From positions 945,001 to 1,009,000 of the forward strand of contig NZ_CP058648.1 in NCBI RefSeq assembly GCF_018141405.1: a DNA stretch of 64,000 nucleotides, in the 5' to 3' direction. Positions 51,740-58,325 of this stretch are shown here, in pieces. Every line of letters starts with the position of its first letter. Positions within the stretch are counted from its first letter, which is position 1. The position numbers were made by a program, and so were the translations under genes. This stretch comes from Serpentinicella alkaliphila. GTDB taxonomy: Bacteria > Bacillota > Clostridia > Peptostreptococcales > Natronincolaceae. Below the pieces are notes generated by a model, which saw only the letters and a list, made by a program, of their open reading frames with translations, searched no databases and was not told the DNA's origin.

Positions 51740-52219
51740 TTGAATATAACAATTATTACTGTAGGTAAAATAAAGGAAAAGCATATTAAATTAGGTATAG
51801 ATGAATATACAAAAAGGTTATCAAGATATTGTAAAATAAATCTTATAGAGGTAAGTGATGAAAAAGCACCAGAGAATTTAAGTGCCAATGAGATGGTTTT
51901 AATAAAAAATAAAGAGGGAGAAAGTATACAAAAACATATAAAAGACGGAATGTACGTAGTTGCATTAGCTATACAAGGAAAAATGCTTTCCTCGGAGGGA
52001 TTAGCAATTAAAATTCAAGACTTAGGGTTAACTGGAAATAGTCATATTGCCTTTGTAATAGGTGGTTCATTAGGACTGTCAGACGATATATTAAATAAGG
52101 CTGATTTTAAGCTATCCTTTTCGCCCATGACCTTCCCACATCAGCTAATGAAACTTATTTTATTAGAGCAAATATACAGAGGGTTTAGGATAATAAAAGG
52201 TGAACCGTATCATAAGTAG
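51740..52219 (+). CDS. rlmH: 23S rRNA pseudouridine-1915 N3-methyltransferase RlmH
   Basis: SPOUT-class methyltransferase (159 aa) that modifies helix 69 of 23S rRNA; called OrfX in staphylococci. TTG start after GAAAGAAGGG. The SAM-binding knot is visible in [14 protein letters not shown] and [34 protein letters not shown]. The last codons, encoding E-P-Y-H-K-stop, carry CGTATCATAA, the equivalent of the attB core used by staphylococcal SCC elements. Everything downstream in the window is accessory DNA. Confidence 0.96.
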
Positions 52220-52303
52220 GGACATACAGAATATTGTTCTTGTAATCGCTTCGTCGTAGCCATATATCAGATTATACTGACTACGAAAAGGAGGTATAAG
52301 ATA

Positions 52304-52540
52304 ATGTATATAGTGACCCTAGGTACTCTGCCACCCTTACAATACCCCATCATAGAGGACGCTTGGGAAAGCTATTACCTAGACGGTAGGCGAGGCTGTA
52401 CTTGTTTATGTTCACGGGGGTGTCGCTGTAAGTCCTATGACCGTTTTGTGCGACAACTTAATACATTTGGCATAGTAAAGCTTCATGCAGCCACAGTAAC
52501 ATATCAATCAGATACACAGCAGAACAGCTGTAACCCTTGA
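52304..52540 (+). CDS. Small cysteine-rich protein, unknown function
   Basis: Not recognised. The 78 aa protein has a strong AAGGAGG ribosome site and begins YIVTLGTLPPLQYPIIEDAWESYYLDG. Five cysteines are packed into eleven residues (C32, C34, C36, C40, C42: CTCLCSRGCRC), followed by a single C at 76. Such spacing suggests metal binding or a redox cluster. It is the first gene after rlmH in the element and converges on a zinc-ribbon gene across a terminator. The stop codon lies in the terminator loop. Confidence 0.65.
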   Translation: MYIVTLGTLPPLQYPIIEDAWESYYLDGRRGCTCLCSRGCRCKSYDRFVRQLNTFGIVKLHAATVTYQSDTQQNSCNP

Positions 52541-52570
52541 TTTAACTAGGTTGCAGCTGTTTGTATTTTA
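52523..52570. terminator. Terminator after the cysteine-rich gene
   Basis: AACAGCTGTAACC (52523-52535) pairs with GGTTGCAGCTGTT (52549-52561) with one wobble; the gene's stop codon is in the loop. A T-rich tail follows. Confidence 0.75.
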
Positions 52571-52575
52571 AGTTT

Positions 52576-52855
52576 TTATTGGTCGACTGCATATCCATCT
52601 AACCTCAACACAGCCTTAACCCCGTCATTATCGTAGCTATCAAGCCACAGCTCCAAGTTACTTACGGTTAATTTAGTAGCAAATTCGAGTTCAGCATTAT
52701 CAAGAGGTATAAAATCTTCTGAGTGGCTTAATCCTGTGCACTTTGGACCAATTCTATGGTCAATAATTGGGCTGTATTCATAGGCCACCCAATCAGGCGG
52801 TAAATCCATAAATAGATTATCATAGAGGCAACCCAGTTCTATCTGGATTTGAACA
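52576..52855 (-). pseudogene. 3' part of an IS-split zinc-ribbon gene
   Basis: Minus-strand codons for about residues 73-164 of a protein whose 5' part lies at 54750-55113. Reading in from the IS end, an ATG in the IS produces a fused frame of 101 codons that starts MFLQPINSG and then continues in phase with the gene (VQIQIELGCLYDNLFMD). This may or may not be translated. The last 42 codons (LDNAELEFATKLTVSNLELWLDS...) are unique to this side. No known domain recognised here. Confidence 0.75.
52707..52855. repeat. 149-bp direct repeat, left copy
   Basis: Identical by eye, base for base, to 54750-54898. The copies sit exactly outside the two ends of the IS and contain a part of the interrupted gene. 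This is the expected structure of a very long target-site duplication. Confidence 0.9.
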
Positions 52856-54749
52856 CCTGAGTTTATAGGTTGCAAGAACAAAAAATCAGCTAAACACCTT
52901 AAAAATACTAGGTCATAGCTGATTTGTTTTTATTTTTTTATGTTGTGAACTATTTCTTTCCTATAAGAACGAATTTGCTCGATTCTTATATTTCTGTAAT
53001 TTAGAGAAACACCAAATAATTTTTCGATATCTCTATAAATTTCATCTTGTTTATTAAGTGAGTAGATTCCATTGGTAATAAATCTACACGTCGCATTTCT
53101 AAGAGACTCTTGTATTCGTTTAATAGAGTATTTGTTTTTGAGTTTATTCTCTAAAATTCTCGAAATTAATAATGCTACGAAACAAATAAGAAAATGTCCT
53201 TCTATTCTATCCTCTCTTCGAACATAGACAGGACGACCTTCTAAATCTGACTTTAAAACTTTAAAAGATTCTTCTATCTTCCAAAGACCTCTATACCTTT
53301 CAATTATTTCTTCATCAGGCATTTCAAGCTCACTGGTAACAAGAGCATAATACCCATCTAAGGCCACATCTCTTTCGTACTTAGACTTCAAACTCTAAGA
53401 GCGTTTTTTTATCTTCCACTTCACCTGTAAAAGTATCTATCTCTATTTCTTTTAAATACTTTTTTACACCATAACGATTAGAAGCTTTATATTTCGAAGG
53501 ATTTTCAAGATACTCTTGAATTTTTTCTTCTAATTTTTTCTTTTGTGTTTTTCTCTAGCATCATAATCGCGGCCCAGAAAGATACAACTTTTTCTTTGAG
53601 TGTAATTTCCTCACCATTTTCGTTATTAGTTTTTCTTTCCCTGAAGAAAGATTTAATCTTAAAAGTTTTAGTAGAGTTATAAACGTAGCCTTCATCTTTA
53701 AGAATTTCTTTTATAAATGTCTTAGAGCAAGACCTCTTACCTTTTGTGAAACTATGTAACCATCATTGTTTTCTACAAGAAAAGCTAGGTTTTTACCACT
53801 ATTTAGAGCTTTGTCTCTTTGTTAGAATTACTCTCTCAAGAGCATATCTATTTTTCATATTCTTTAAGGCAGGAATAAGCATTGTACTATCATGGGTATT
53901 ACCAGAAAAAAGATCATACCCAACAGGTAGGCCTGCTCTATCAATTGCTAGACTCATTTGTACGATTGGCGTTGTTCTTTTTTGTTTAGAGATACCAACT
54001 TTTTAAGATTATTTTCTAAGTCTGATTCAAAGTAATAGTTAGTTACATCAAAGAAAACAAGTGAAGTATCTCTACCGTGGATCTGTGAAACTTGTTCATG
54101 AAGATGTTGTTGTAGGTCTTCTTTAATATCCTTCATTAGAGAGAGAGACTCGTAAATAGAATTTATAGTTACTTTAAAAGATTCGAAATACTCATCTTTA
54201 TTTTCAAATGTTGATTTTTTACTAGCAGGTTTCAGAATTCTTCCATATAGAAGCAATTGAAAAACTTCATTCAAGTCAAAAACATGCTTTCTTTTACGCA
54301 TTTGTGATTTAAAAACTGAGGTAAACTAAGCTCATTATAGAGTCTTTCAAGAAAAAAGTAGCCATAGTTCTTATCAATTTCCATATCATCGTTACTATCA
54401 CTAAGGTTCAATGTTAGATTTACTTGGTTTTTAGTTATCAATTTAGCAGAATCTTTTAGCTTTTGTAGAATATCCGGATCATTAGCCTCTAATTCTTCAA
54501 GATTGCCATAGCATTTAATAATTCTTTGTTTAGATTTACCATTTTCGTCACGGTAGCCTTCAACAAGATATACTTTTTTATACTTAGCTGTAGGACTCTT
54601 AGTCACTCTAATAAACATAAAATCACCCTCTTTTATTATATCACAGTACATCGAAGTACACAACGATTATTTCCAAAATTTCCAATAAAAAAACACCTGA
54701 AATTCAAGTGTTTTATTATCTTTTTAGTTTTTGAACCTATAAACTCAGG
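52856..54749 (-). mobile_element. IS1634-like insertion sequence
   Basis: 1894 bp with 16-bp perfect terminal inverted repeats, CCTGAGTTTATAGGTT at 52856-52871 and its complement at 54734-54749. The transposase remnant on the minus strand is of the IS1634/IS4-like DDE type. Hairpins inside both ends (52882-52925 and about 54690-54715) would insulate the element from outside transcription. IS1634 and IS1549 are known for long, variable target duplications, and a 149-bp duplication flanks this element. Confidence 0.88.
52930..54618 (-). pseudogene. Frameshifted IS1634-family transposase
   Basis: Transposase of the DDE type read in pieces on the minus strand. Start MFIRVTKSPTAKYKKVYLVEGYRDENGKSKQ at 54618. 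The first catalytic Asp is in LVFFDVTNYYFES. The second is expected in LAIDRAGLPVGYDLFSGNT, which is in another frame. The Glu lies in YRGLWKIEESFKVLKSDLEGRPVYVRREDR, the Y-x2-R-x3-E-x6-K signature. I count about seven frame changes, near 54300, 53981, 53815, 53725, 53568, 53550 and 53393, several at A-runs. The gene is inactive unless these are sequencing errors. Confidence 0.85.
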
Positions 54750-54898
54750 GTATAAAATCTTCTGAGTGGCTTAATCCTGTGCACTTTGGACCAATTCTAT
54801 GGTCAATAATTGGGCTGTATTCATAGGCCACCCAATCAGGCGGTAAATCCATAAATAGATTATCATAGAGGCAACCCAGTTCTATCTGGATTTGAACA
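54750..54898. repeat. 149-bp direct repeat, right copy
   Basis: Second copy of the repeat at 52707-52855; the flanking sequence continues the zinc-ribbon gene towards its 5' end, so the two copies plus flanks rebuild one uninterrupted reading frame if one copy and the IS are removed. Confidence 0.9.
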
Positions 54899-55113
54899 TT
54901 CTTACCAGTACACACCTTTCCGTCAATATAATCTATTAAATCGTGTAGGTCACAGGCAGCACTGACCACCTTGATGCCCTTATCGAGCAGACTATTGACA
55001 ATTTCAACCAAATTCTCGCTGCATGGTATGGTAAGGCGTGTGCTGTTGCAGGAAAGGCAGGGTATGCGACTGGTACTATGGTATACATACCTACAATCAC
55101 GGCATAACTGCAT
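54750..55113 (-). pseudogene. 5' part of an IS-split zinc-ribbon gene
   Basis: Encodes the first 121-122 residues of an originally about 164 aa protein, then hits a TGA supplied by the IS terminal repeat. The N-terminus MQLCRDCRYVYHSTSRIPCLSCNS has C4, C7, C19 and C22, a zinc ribbon. The rest (VEIVNSLLDKGIKVVSAACDLHDLIDYIDGKV...) is unfamiliar. It overlaps the end of the recombinase gene by 17 bp, so it was co-expressed with it. The truncated product retains most of the protein and might still be functional. Confidence 0.75.
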
Positions 55114-55714
55114 CTTTATTCTCCTCCTTTGACTTGTAAATGCTAATATATTTATATATGGTTTGACGACTCACATCACACAGACGAGCCAGTTCTGTAA
55201 CATTAATCTCTTTATTTGTATACTTAGGATAATGCCTTAGAAAGCTGTTAGGAAGGTTCTCAATAGTAGTTGTGGGGCGGCCTACAACAATTCCTTTACT
55301 TGCGGCATTTGCCATTCCACTCCGAACTCTTTGACTAATGATGGACTTTTCCATTTCTGAAAATACCCCCCACATAAGCAGCATCCCCTGTGTCATAGGG
55401 TCTAGTTCAGAAGTACAGTCTACTACAAAAGTTCCTATAATGAGCTTTATCTGCTTAGCTCTCGCAGTTTCTATGATTTCACACAGCTGTTTAGTCGACC
55501 TAGTTAGCCTGCTGACCTCTGTGCAAGCTATGGTACTTCCGCACTCTACCACGCTTAGTAGCCTATTCCATTCGACTTTATGGTCTTTACTCCCTGACAC
55601 ATATTCCCAATAAATATTCTCGTTTTTGATGCCTAGCTTCCTTAGCTCTCTCCTTTGTCTGTCGATGTCTTGCTTAGTTTCATTTGTACTACATCTACAA
55701 TAGCCAAAATCCAT
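55097..55714 (-). CDS. Small serine recombinase (resolvase/invertase type)
   Basis: Site-specific recombinase of 205 aa. The catalytic domain starts MDFGYCRCSTNETKQDIDRQRREL with nucleophile S9, followed by SGSKDHKVEWNRLL, the SRLTRSTKQL segment and GMLLMWGVFSEMEKSIISQRVRSGMANAASKGI, then an HTH (about 165-200) with NVTELARLCDVSRQTIYKYI. Small size indicates a resolvase or invertase, not a large integrase like CcrA/B. The ATG at 55714 is 9 nt past GAGAGG; an ATG at 55723 touches that site. Confidence 0.85.
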   Translation of the reverse strand: MDFGYCRCSTNETKQDIDRQRRELRKLGIKNENIYWEYVSGSKDHKVEWNRLLSVVECGSTIACTEVSRLTRSTKQLCEIIETARAKQIKLIIGTFVVDCTSELDPMTQGMLLMWGVFSEMEKSIISQRVRSGMANAASKGIVVGRPTTTIENLPNSFLRHYPKYTNKEINVTELARLCDVSRQTIYKYISIYKSKEENKDAVMP

Positions 55715-55732
55715 ACCTATCATCCTCTCATG

Positions 55733-55760
55733 TTTATAGTCTTATGAACCGATTTGTCAA
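55733..55760 (-). promoter_or_regulatory. Promoter for the recombinase gene
   Basis: On the minus strand TTGACA (55755-55760), 16-bp spacer, TATAAA (55733-55738). The predicted start of transcription is very near the ribosome site, giving an unusually short leader. Confidence 0.55.
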
Positions 55761-56059
55761 CAAAACGGTGTAAATAATATCCTTGACACAATTGAGCTGT
55801 TTTTACTGCGTTTACGGGTTGTTTTAGTTCTGCGTTAAGTGTAAACGAAAAGAACTCTTTTCTTTGACACTACTATTAACTCTAAAGTAAACGGCCACGG
55901 ATACTTTAGTCAAGCCTCTTTTCAAAGTTTTATTCGACGGTGGCGTGCTTCGTGGCTCATTAAAGATACTAGATAGATAGCTTGATATGGTATAGTAAAT
56001 ATCACGATATAGGTATATAATCTTGATGTTTGGTGTGTATTATGGTATTGTAGTTATGC
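55761..56059. other. Intergenic region between recombinase and regulator genes
   Basis: About 300 bp between divergent genes. Three 6-bp elements GTTTAC/GTAAAC occur at 55810-55815, 55841-55846 and 55887-55892, two of them preceded by CTGCGTT. They may be operator or recombination sub-sites, but none forms a long palindrome. No gene is supported. Confidence 0.4.
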
Positions 56060-56065
56060 TATAAT
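56057..56065 (+). promoter_or_regulatory. Extended -10 promoter for the R-M operon
   Basis: TGC-TATAAT with the -10 hexamer at 56060-56065, 20 bp upstream of the regulator start at 56085 and 7 bp ahead of its GGAGG site. No good -35. Confidence 0.5.
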
Positions 56066-56084
56066 GATGACGGAGGTTAGAAAA

Positions 56085-56327
56085 ATGGAAGTAAGTTACA
56101 ATAAGCTATGGAAGTTGTTAATTGATAAGAATTTAAAGCGCACTGACTTACGCAAGATAGCTGGAGTTAGCACAAATGTAATCGCTAAGTTAGGACGGAA
56201 TGACTCTGTTTCAATGGAAACTCTGACAAAAATCTGTACGGCTCTACATTGTGACATCTCAGATATTGTTGGATTGGTTAATGATAAAGAAACGGAGGAC
56301 AAGGTTGAATATGAGCAGAACAATTAA
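56085..56327 (+). CDS. XRE-family helix-turn-helix regulator
   Basis: An 80 aa Cro/C1-type regulator: MEVSYNKLWKLLIDKNLKRTDLRKIAGVSTNVIAKLGRNDSVSMETLTKICTALHCDISDIVGLV. The ATG at 56085 lies 8 nt past GGAGG. It overlaps the methyltransferase gene by 17 bp, so it is co-translated with it. In this position it could act as a controller protein delaying nuclease expression, but its sequence is of the YozG-like type rather than a classic C protein, and no C-box palindrome was seen. The role is inferred. Confidence 0.8.
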   Translation: MEVSYNKLWKLLIDKNLKRTDLRKIAGVSTNVIAKLGRNDSVSMETLTKICTALHCDISDIVGLVNDKETEDKVEYEQNN

Positions 56328-57600
56328 GTTTATAGATTTATTTGCTGGTATAGGTGGGATTCGTAAAGGCCTTGAACTGGCTTGTGCTGACTTAGGTATA
56401 TCAGCTGAATGTGTTTTTACCTCTGAAATAAAACCATACGCTGTTGAGGTGCTGAAGCAGAACCACCCAGATGAAGTAATGCACGGTGATATTACACAAG
56501 TGCCTGCTAATGAAATTCCTGATTTTGATTTTTTATGTGCGGGATTTCCGTGTCAAGCGTTCTCAGCTGCTGGTAAACGCTTAGGATTTGAGGATACAAG
56601 GGGTACCCTATTCTTTGATGTAGCTCGTATTATCAAAGAGAAGAAACCTTTTGGTTTCATATTAGAAAATGTCGAAGGGTTAGTTAATCACGATAGAGAG
56701 AACCCAAAAGATAAGGTAGGCCGAACCTTAACGATTATTTTGGAACAGTTAGAAGATTTAGGATATATGGTAGCATGGAATGTTCTAAATGCTAAGCAGT
56801 TCGGTGTACCACAGGAGAGGAAGCGTATTTATATAGTAGGTACAAAGAAAGAAAAGCCTGACATAATGACATTTCCTCATAAAAAGAGTCATCTGAGAGA
56901 TATATTAGAAACGGGATTACCCACCTCTAATAGTGAATTTGTTCAGCTTGTTTTGCGTCACTATCCTATAGAAGAACTCTATGGAAAGTCAATAAAAGAT
57001 AAGCGTGGCGGTGAAAACAATATACATAGTTGGGATATTGAGTATAAAGGGCCTATTAGCCCAGCTCAGCGAGAATTGATGAATAAGATATTAACTGAAC
57101 GCCGTAAAAAGAAATGGGCCGAGGAATATGGTATAGACTGGATGGACGGTATGCCACTGACCCTAGACCATATACGCACATTTTATAATGATGAAAATTT
57201 AGAAGATATGCTTACAGACCTTGTTGAGAAGGGTTATTTGAAGCTTGAACACCCTAAGAAGAAGGTTGGAAATATAAGAGTACAAGATACTACATTACCT
57301 AAGGGGTATAATATAGTCGCTGGTAAAATGTCTTATGAGATTAGTAAGATACTTGACCCTGATGGCATAGCACCAACACTTGTTGCAATGGATGTTCAGC
57401 ATTTATTTGTACCTGATGGTAACGGCTTAAGAACTTTATCATTGCGTGAAGGATTACGACTTTTTGGCTATCCTGATGACTTTAAATTTGATACTACTAT
57501 TGAGGACGGGTTTGACCTATTAGGAAATACAGTTGTCGTGCCCGTTATTAAGGAAGTTGCTTTGAGGGTATTAAAAATATATTGTGGGGGTAATAATTAA
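56311..57600 (+). CDS. DNA (cytosine-5)-methyltransferase
   Basis: Methylates cytosine in a specific duplex site to protect host DNA. The 429 aa start MSRTIKFIDLFAGIGGIRKGLE (motif I, SAM binding). Catalytic PCQ with C81 (AGFPCQAFSAAGKRLGFEDTRG), ENV at 119-121, a QERKRIYIVG motif VIII, then a target-recognition domain (about 215-340) and motifs IX-X ending FGYPDDF and LLGNTVVVPV. The start at 56311 has GGAGG 12 nt upstream. Overlaps the regulator and is joined to the nuclease gene by TAATG. A GGNNCC-like target is only a guess from its partner. Confidence 0.93.
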   Translation: MSRTIKFIDLFAGIGGIRKGLELACADLGISAECVFTSEIKPYAVEVLKQNHPDEVMHGDITQVPANEIPDFDFLCAGFPCQAFSAAGKRLGFEDTRGTLFFDVARIIKEKKPFGFILENVEGLVNHDRENPKDKVGRTLTIILEQLEDLGYMVAWNVLNAKQFGVPQERKRIYIVGTKKEKPDIMTFPHKKSHLRDILETGLPTSNSEFVQLVLRHYPIEELYGKSIKDKRGGENNIHSWDIEYKGPISPAQRELMNKILTERRKKKWAEEYGIDWMDGMPLTLDHIRTFYNDENLEDMLTDLVEKGYLKLEHPKKKVGNIRVQDTTLPKGYNIVAGKMSYEISKILDPDGIAPTLVAMDVQHLFVPDGNGLRTLSLREGLRLFGYPDDFKFDTTIEDGFDLLGNTVVVPVIKEVALRVLKIYCGGNN

Positions 57601-58325
57601 TGAGGTGTACAGCACAAGAGATTTATAACAAACTGCTTAACGATGATAAAATATTGGATTTGAAAGGTCAGATTAAGTTCTACTTAGGTGATGTAGATAT
57701 TATCGTGAGGCAGAAGGATGTTGTTGGGAACATTATACAAGAATGGTTACAAGGTTGGCTTGATAAACGAGGAATTGAATATGTTTTATCGGAAAATACA
57801 CAAATGCCACCTGATTTTTACCTTAACCCTGACAATATGACAACAGGACTTTTAGAGGGCAAGGCCTTTAATCGTTCTGCAAGTCCGGGGTTTGACATTG
57901 CCGACTTTAGGATGTACGAGGAGGAAATTATAGACAAGCCTTATATGCTTGATGTTGACTATCTTATCTTTGGTTATGATATGAGCGATGAGGGTATAGT
58001 TACTATTAAAGACTTGTGGATTAAGAAGGTTTGGGAGATAACCAGATGTATGCAAAATTGGGCTCTAAATTTACAGGTTAAACAAGGCGTTGTACATAAG
58101 ATACGCCCCGGTGTCTGGTATAGCACACAGCGTGTCTCATTCCCAATGTTCACTTGTTTGGAGGATTTTATTTCTGCAGTTGAAGAAACCGTATACCAGA
58201 ACCCTAAAACTCATAACGAGGCCGCAAGCTGGAAGAACAGTTTTTTAGCAAGCTATAAAAGACATTATGGGATACAGCTAGTTATTCCACGCTGGAGTGA
58301 TATTGTTGGAAAATATAGAAGTTAG
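57600..58325 (+). CDS. Type II restriction endonuclease, NgoBV-like
   Basis: Restriction enzyme of 241 aa resembling the NgoBV/NlaIV group, whose members cut GGNNCC. The PD-(D/E)xK site is P71-D72 in PPDFYLN with E86-G87-K88 in LLEGKAF. Other family-like stretches: SPGFDIADFRMY, YMLDVDYLIFGYDMSDEGIV, LWIKKVWEITR and VKQGVVHKIRPGVWYS. ATG overlaps the methyltransferase stop by one base, so the pair is co-translated. The exact recognition sequence is not certain. A terminator follows. Confidence 0.82.
   Translation: MRCTAQEIYNKLLNDDKILDLKGQIKFYLGDVDIIVRQKDVVGNIIQEWLQGWLDKRGIEYVLSENTQMPPDFYLNPDNMTTGLLEGKAFNRSASPGFDIADFRMYEEEIIDKPYMLDVDYLIFGYDMSDEGIVTIKDLWIKKVWEITRCMQNWALNLQVKQGVVHKIRPGVWYSTQRVSFPMFTCLEDFISAVEETVYQNPKTHNEAASWKNSFLASYKRHYGIQLVIPRWSDIVGKYRS

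Follow-up and report, generated by a model that had tools for sequence, protein, structure and literature searches.

The question raised by this locus is how an insertion sequence (IS) in the genome of Serpentinicella alkaliphila came to lie between two long, identical direct repeats. In the window, i.e., the whole 64-kb stretch of DNA analyzed here, the 149 bp at 52707-52855 recur at 54750-54898 with 0 mismatches (150 bp if a terminal G common with the IS is counted), and both copies adjoin the element termini, CCTGAGTTTATAGGTT and AACCTATAAACTCAGG at 52856-52871 and 54734-54749, exactly. The preliminary description had claimed such a pair immediately outside 16-bp inverted repeats, and the alignment bears it out, the inverted repeats being perfect (16/16 complementary). 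Besides this pair, no other direct repeat with a common 20-mer was present in the 64-kb window, which excludes an origin of the repeat by chance. The features of the element and its flanks are as follows:

52576-52855, minus strand: zinc-ribbon gene, 3' part, the initial 149 bp of which are the duplicate
52707-52855: target duplication, left copy, 149 bp, identical to 54750-54898
52856-54749, minus strand: IS1634-family insertion sequence, 1,894 bp, with ends set against 11 other copies in the genome that are about 99% identical
52856-52871: terminal inverted repeat on the transposase 3' side, CCTGAGTTTATAGGTT, 16/16 complementary to 54734-54749
52930-54618, minus strand: transposase gene, frameshifted in the window copy; the consensus is one 563-codon frame starting with MFIRVTKSP
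54734-54749: terminal inverted repeat on the transposase 5' side, AACCTATAAACTCAGG, pairing with 52856-52871
54745-55113, minus strand: zinc-ribbon gene, 5' part, which together with 52576-52706 gives an unbroken 164-residue protein
54750-54898: target duplication, right copy, 149 bp, beginning with GTATAA at the IS junction
54750-54755, plus strand: GTATAA, which marks the right IS end as the TATA-type target side according to the pattern over 97 insertions

Assignment of the element to the IS1634 family, claimed beforehand as an IS1634-like identity, was confirmed by a consensus transposase that was built as the majority of 13 copies and scored 364 bits against the NCBIfam model NF033559 (IS1634; cut-off 100). 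The family is characterized by a YREK-type motif without the arginine, a length of 1500-2000 bp and ends of the form C-----YT (PMC2266710). In the window element the motif reads YRGLWKIEESFKVLK (Y-2-L-3-E-6-K), again without arginine, the length is 1,894 bp and the ends are CCTGAGTT. The direct repeats of 5-6 bp given in the family table (PMC2266710) are absent, with 149 bp in the window and 62-183 bp in the sister copies; however, such repeats do not define membership, since IS1549 and IS1634, the family's namesakes, are themselves entered as exceptions with long, variable repeats (PMC2266710). Repeats that are long and differ in length from copy to copy, as seen here, are what characterizes the long-repeat IS1634-type group. 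As regards the single open reading frame typical of the family, the consensus forms one frame of 563 aa, whereas every assembled copy of the window element is frameshifted (52930-54618 in the window and the sister copies L018-L027 and L029). Variants are common to the copies in a mosaic fashion, with four-gamete violations in 252 of 496 pairs, several of the transposase indels are located at homopolymers or near GCAGC/GCTGC, and nine repeat pairs (990 bp) contained zero mismatches as compared to about 12 expected. The frameshifts may represent either real decay accompanied by gene conversion or systematic sequencing error. For a related transposase from Inordinaticella fortuita (L109), which is 54% identical to an intact sister transposase of 577 aa encoded in the window's genome, the predicted fold (mean pLDDT 88) was nearest to Tn5 transposase (1muh, E 3e-10), suggesting a Tn5-like DDE fold for this transposase type. 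The DDE cut-and-paste superfamily is what the element has in common with the IS4 family (IS231, IS10, IS50/Tn5); unlike that family, for which a complete YREK motif and fixed repeats of 7-13 bp are described (PMC2266710), the window element lacks the arginine and is flanked by 149 bp.

Evidence that the repeat arose by insertion comes from the sister copies, from the interrupted gene and from empty sites. The window's genome (3.26 Mb, one contig) contains 11 more well-preserved copies, including one that a further insertion has split, with repeats of 62, 64, 87, 92, 94, 107, 122, 122, 136, 150 and 183 bp, so that 12 of 12 well-preserved copies have different long repeats ending exactly at the IS termini. 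Inspection of the flanks of other copies, as had been recommended at the outset, therefore revealed long repeats at all well-preserved ones and at none a short repeat only. The repeats of 92 and 150 bp are broken by later insertions, and an older copy (L028, 97% identical) has no long repeat. Other IS1634-family elements of the same genome and of the relative G003 are flanked by long repeats too. The later elements found in L020, L027 and L029 (about 1.36-1.57 kb) interrupt the long repeats of two copies and, in a third copy, the IS itself; their own target repeats are apparently short, a few bases each.

When the flanks of the window element are joined with a single 149-bp repeat, the 164-residue zinc-ribbon frame on the minus strand becomes unbroken. 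A direct comparison with empty sites was possible for an element of the 634-aa type that is inserted in L073 with a 52-bp repeat in another IS: five empty sites of the same genome (L063, L069, L071, L072 and L239) hold the 52 bp once and align gapless at 99% identity over about 495 bp. The suggested search for an uninterrupted zinc-ribbon gene led to a distant homologue in G407 (33-35%), which holds the segment once, as does the homologue in G253 (45%) of the membrane protein interrupted in sister copy L026. A search among 391 genomes for a close strain in which the window locus is empty found none and gave the distant zinc-ribbon homologue only, and no intact zinc-ribbon gene was present among the viral contigs and phages searched. 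The single copies in the homologues and at the empty sites of the sister element are the opposite of an empty site already carrying two copies, which had been named as the observation that would speak against a duplication. Taken together, these results support the claim that insertion of an IS1634-family element created the 149-bp repeat as a true target duplication.

How common such duplications are was surveyed by family, class and phylum searches and in genome contigs and plasmid or phage records. Since a first pass by perfect inverted repeats overlooked many insertions, boundaries were taken from copy-to-copy comparison instead; the automatic pass yielded 132 insertions with long repeats, 27 of which were dropped because of doubtful ends and 8 of which, belonging to an AAAA sub-clade, were tested apart, leaving 97 insertions of 42 elements for motif and length statistics. 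In these 97 curated insertions, the repeat length ranged from 30 to 1018 bp with a median of 117 bp, followed a lognormal distribution well and showed no 10.5-bp helical phasing. Examples are 44 bp in Mycoplasmopsis gallopavonis, 47 bp in Streptococcus phage YS387, 58 bp in Actinomyces oris and 610 bp with one mismatch in Mycobacterium riyadhense. For a less biased estimate, 96 copies were taken whose ends came from copy comparison with the repeats disregarded: 85 had full long repeats, 2 interrupted and 3 partial ones (90/96 with some long repeat) and 6 had none and could conceal deletions or recombined flanks. One of these six, L074 in G000, belongs to the 634-aa element and is decayed; it has a possible 6-bp repeat, ATATAA, and no long one, and is the only candidate for a short repeat among the long-repeat elements. 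Overall, the survey strongly supports that duplication of 30 to about 1,000 bp, varying in length from copy to copy, is routine in a large part of the family. The initial idea of extending the phenomenon to one Clostridia element with a very long duplication hence holds insofar as the repeat is long, but the case is not isolated, and with 149 bp it lies near the median rather than at an extreme.

The IS1634 family contains both repeat kinds, as 6-bp repeats were observed experimentally, after actual transposition, for ISGka5 from Geobacillus (PMC8024623) and ISPfe2 from Paracoccus (PMC3281130), which belong to the same family as the window element and yet differ from it in this respect. In the survey, six elements had 5-6 bp repeats, four of them in three copies each (e.g., TAGCA, TCTCC and ATAAC, or TTACAG, CTATAT and CTTTAG). 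In a tree of 72 transposases, one change with a support of 84 separates the 53 long-repeat elements from these six, which is to be read as clustering and not as direction of change, since any element with an identified long repeat was labeled "long" and 13 rows were unclassified. The M. gallopavonis relative, which has a long branch, is placed on the side of the long-repeat elements; a second tree left out very divergent transposases with unsure alignment.

At the window locus, the two IS ends differ in their surroundings: the right end adjoins GTATAA, whereas the outward flank of the left end (52855/52856) reads TGTTCA and contains no TATA. The same asymmetry was observed over the 97 insertions, where TATA within 6 nt outward of the IS was found at one end only in 52, at both ends in 0 and at neither in 45 (background 4%), and the looser word T[AT]TA at one end in 63, at both in 3 and at neither in 31; shuffles preserving the totals of each end gave P values of 0.0007 and 0.0004, respectively, for words that were picked after inspecting the flanks and therefore need confirmation with fresh data. 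In elements with equal termini, T[AT]TA occurred at exactly one end in 25 of 31 insertions (shuffled mean 15.6, P 0.0004). In elements with unequal termini, 31 of 33 strict TATA words were at the transposase 3' end, and the excess of exactly-one cases over column-preserving shuffles was not significant because the TATA end is already fixed; what these elements contribute as evidence is a motif that keeps to one end. When the termini are equal, either end can accordingly serve as the TATA end, whereas with unequal termini this role falls nearly always to the same one. In the AAAA sub-clade, 7 of 8 insertions had the word at one end only, too few for significance alone, and when one insertion per element was sampled, about 19 of 42 were still without the motif. 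At the end opposite TATA, only a weak purine preference was seen, and AT content does not change sharply at the second cut; the AT-richness of the duplicated segments simply reflects that of the surrounding region. These data support that one IS end often adjoins (A)TTATA, which AAAA apparently replaces in one sub-clade, and that the other end, joined to the opposite strand on the distal side of the duplicated segment, meets nearly any sequence. As a separate observation, the transposase of unequal-termini elements tends towards the C-rich strand (30/38 as compared to 19 expected from motif density).

As currently understood, DDE transposases join both ends to one target with a fixed stagger of a few bases, and concerted joining of this kind does not fit the repeats described here. 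The one-sided word favors ordered, uncoupled joining; we infer the opening of a gap and, from the end products, the order of events and the DNA synthesis. Following this, we propose that the first IS end would attack the strand 5' of TTATA, that the nick would leave a 3'-OH from which host synthesis or unwinding could open the target downstream, in the 3' direction, and that capture of the second IS end would follow on the opposite strand, as far along as the target had been opened by then, the long single-stranded gaps being filled to give the duplication. As the proposed opening is one-way from the first nick, the outcome would almost always be a duplication and not a deletion. For the window, a genuine IS1634-family target duplication made by ordered, uncoupled strand transfers is probable. 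The wider proposal that a large part of the family transposes in this uncoupled DDE manner, with the TTATA end joined first and set by the terminal sequence, tens to a thousand bases opened one-way by host synthesis or unwinding and the second end captured later, is put forward tentatively. Against ordered joining speaks that strict TATA is absent from both ends in 45 of the 97 insertions and the looser word in 31.

Instead of successive transfers, both ends might be joined in one step by a complex holding two points far apart on a looped or wrapped target, one end being site-specific and no synthesis occurring in between. Enzymes of the Tn5 type work as a paired complex, so the predicted Tn5-like fold would suit this model, as would a second site lacking any sequence boundary except the weak purine preference. 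However, a fixed geometry is difficult to reconcile with the broad, lognormal-like spread of 30-1018 bp without helical phasing, and a loop alone leaves the excess of duplications unexplained, which makes the model rather unlikely. Coupling to a replication fork, with each IS end joining a different sister strand, appears less likely still. It is suggested by the TATA strand being the C-rich strand in 30 of 38 unequal-termini cases, for which 19 would be expected from motif density, but this bias is absent with equal termini (4/11 for the window IS and 6/9 for the 627-aa element) and may for that reason be one of element orientation; moreover, joining of sisters would give deletions too. Recombination, either between two nearby insertions or between IS copies on sister chromosomes, could produce chimeric flanks mimicking a long repeat, and the high similarity and mosaic variants of the IS copies are in line with it. 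Yet it would require two nearby insertions every time, predicts deletions as often as duplications and does not predict a word at one end only, while long repeats occur at 90 of 96 copies, low-copy elements included; we regard it as very improbable. That the 149 bp were repeated beforehand or by a segmental duplication independent of the insertion, with the IS between the copies, is hardly credible: in its favor, no close empty-site strain of the locus was found among the 391 genomes, but each well-preserved copy has its own long repeat stopping exactly at the IS termini, joining the flanks restores the reading frame, and the sister-element empty sites and homologous genes hold one copy.

Long variable repeats as such are already known from IS1634 of Mycoplasma mycoides and IS1549 of Mycobacterium smegmatis, being named in the titles of Vilei, 1999 and Plikaytis, 1998 (PMC1798306; PMC12274833), and the window element is a further case. 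Compared with the published descriptions of both, it likewise combines an IS1634-family transposase with long, variable insertion repeats and differs in host and sequence. Repeats of 8-514 bp are reported across the two elements, and no mechanistic model was proposed (PMC2266710). New, as far as searched, are that a large part of the family makes long duplications as a rule, the six surveyed 5-6 bp elements lying on the other side of one tree branch, and that often exactly one IS end, rarely both, adjoins (A)TTATA. Neither was found in the literature searched; the founding papers of 1998/1999 and ISfinder lie outside it and may hold part of this. What was an exception for IS1549 and IS1634 would thus become a rule, with one end preferring a sequence and one nearly free, and the order of events is testable. 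Such insertions copy promoters and gene pieces beside the IS, and IS annotation expecting short, fixed repeats would miss them. For M. mycoides PG1, a 13-kb repeat pair around one IS1634-sized gap has been published (PMC1798306); it could be an extreme case of such target duplication or the result of IS recombination.

The surroundings of the element within the window contain the following genes:

51740-52219: rlmH
55097-55723: serine recombinase with resolvase domain, following rlmH
56251-57600: cytosine-5 methyltransferase-like ORF
57600-58325: possible partner nuclease

No att-like repeat of at least 20 bp was seen in the 64-kb window. In staphylococci, rlmH is the SCC integration site, and an island at 51740-58325 is therefore possible.
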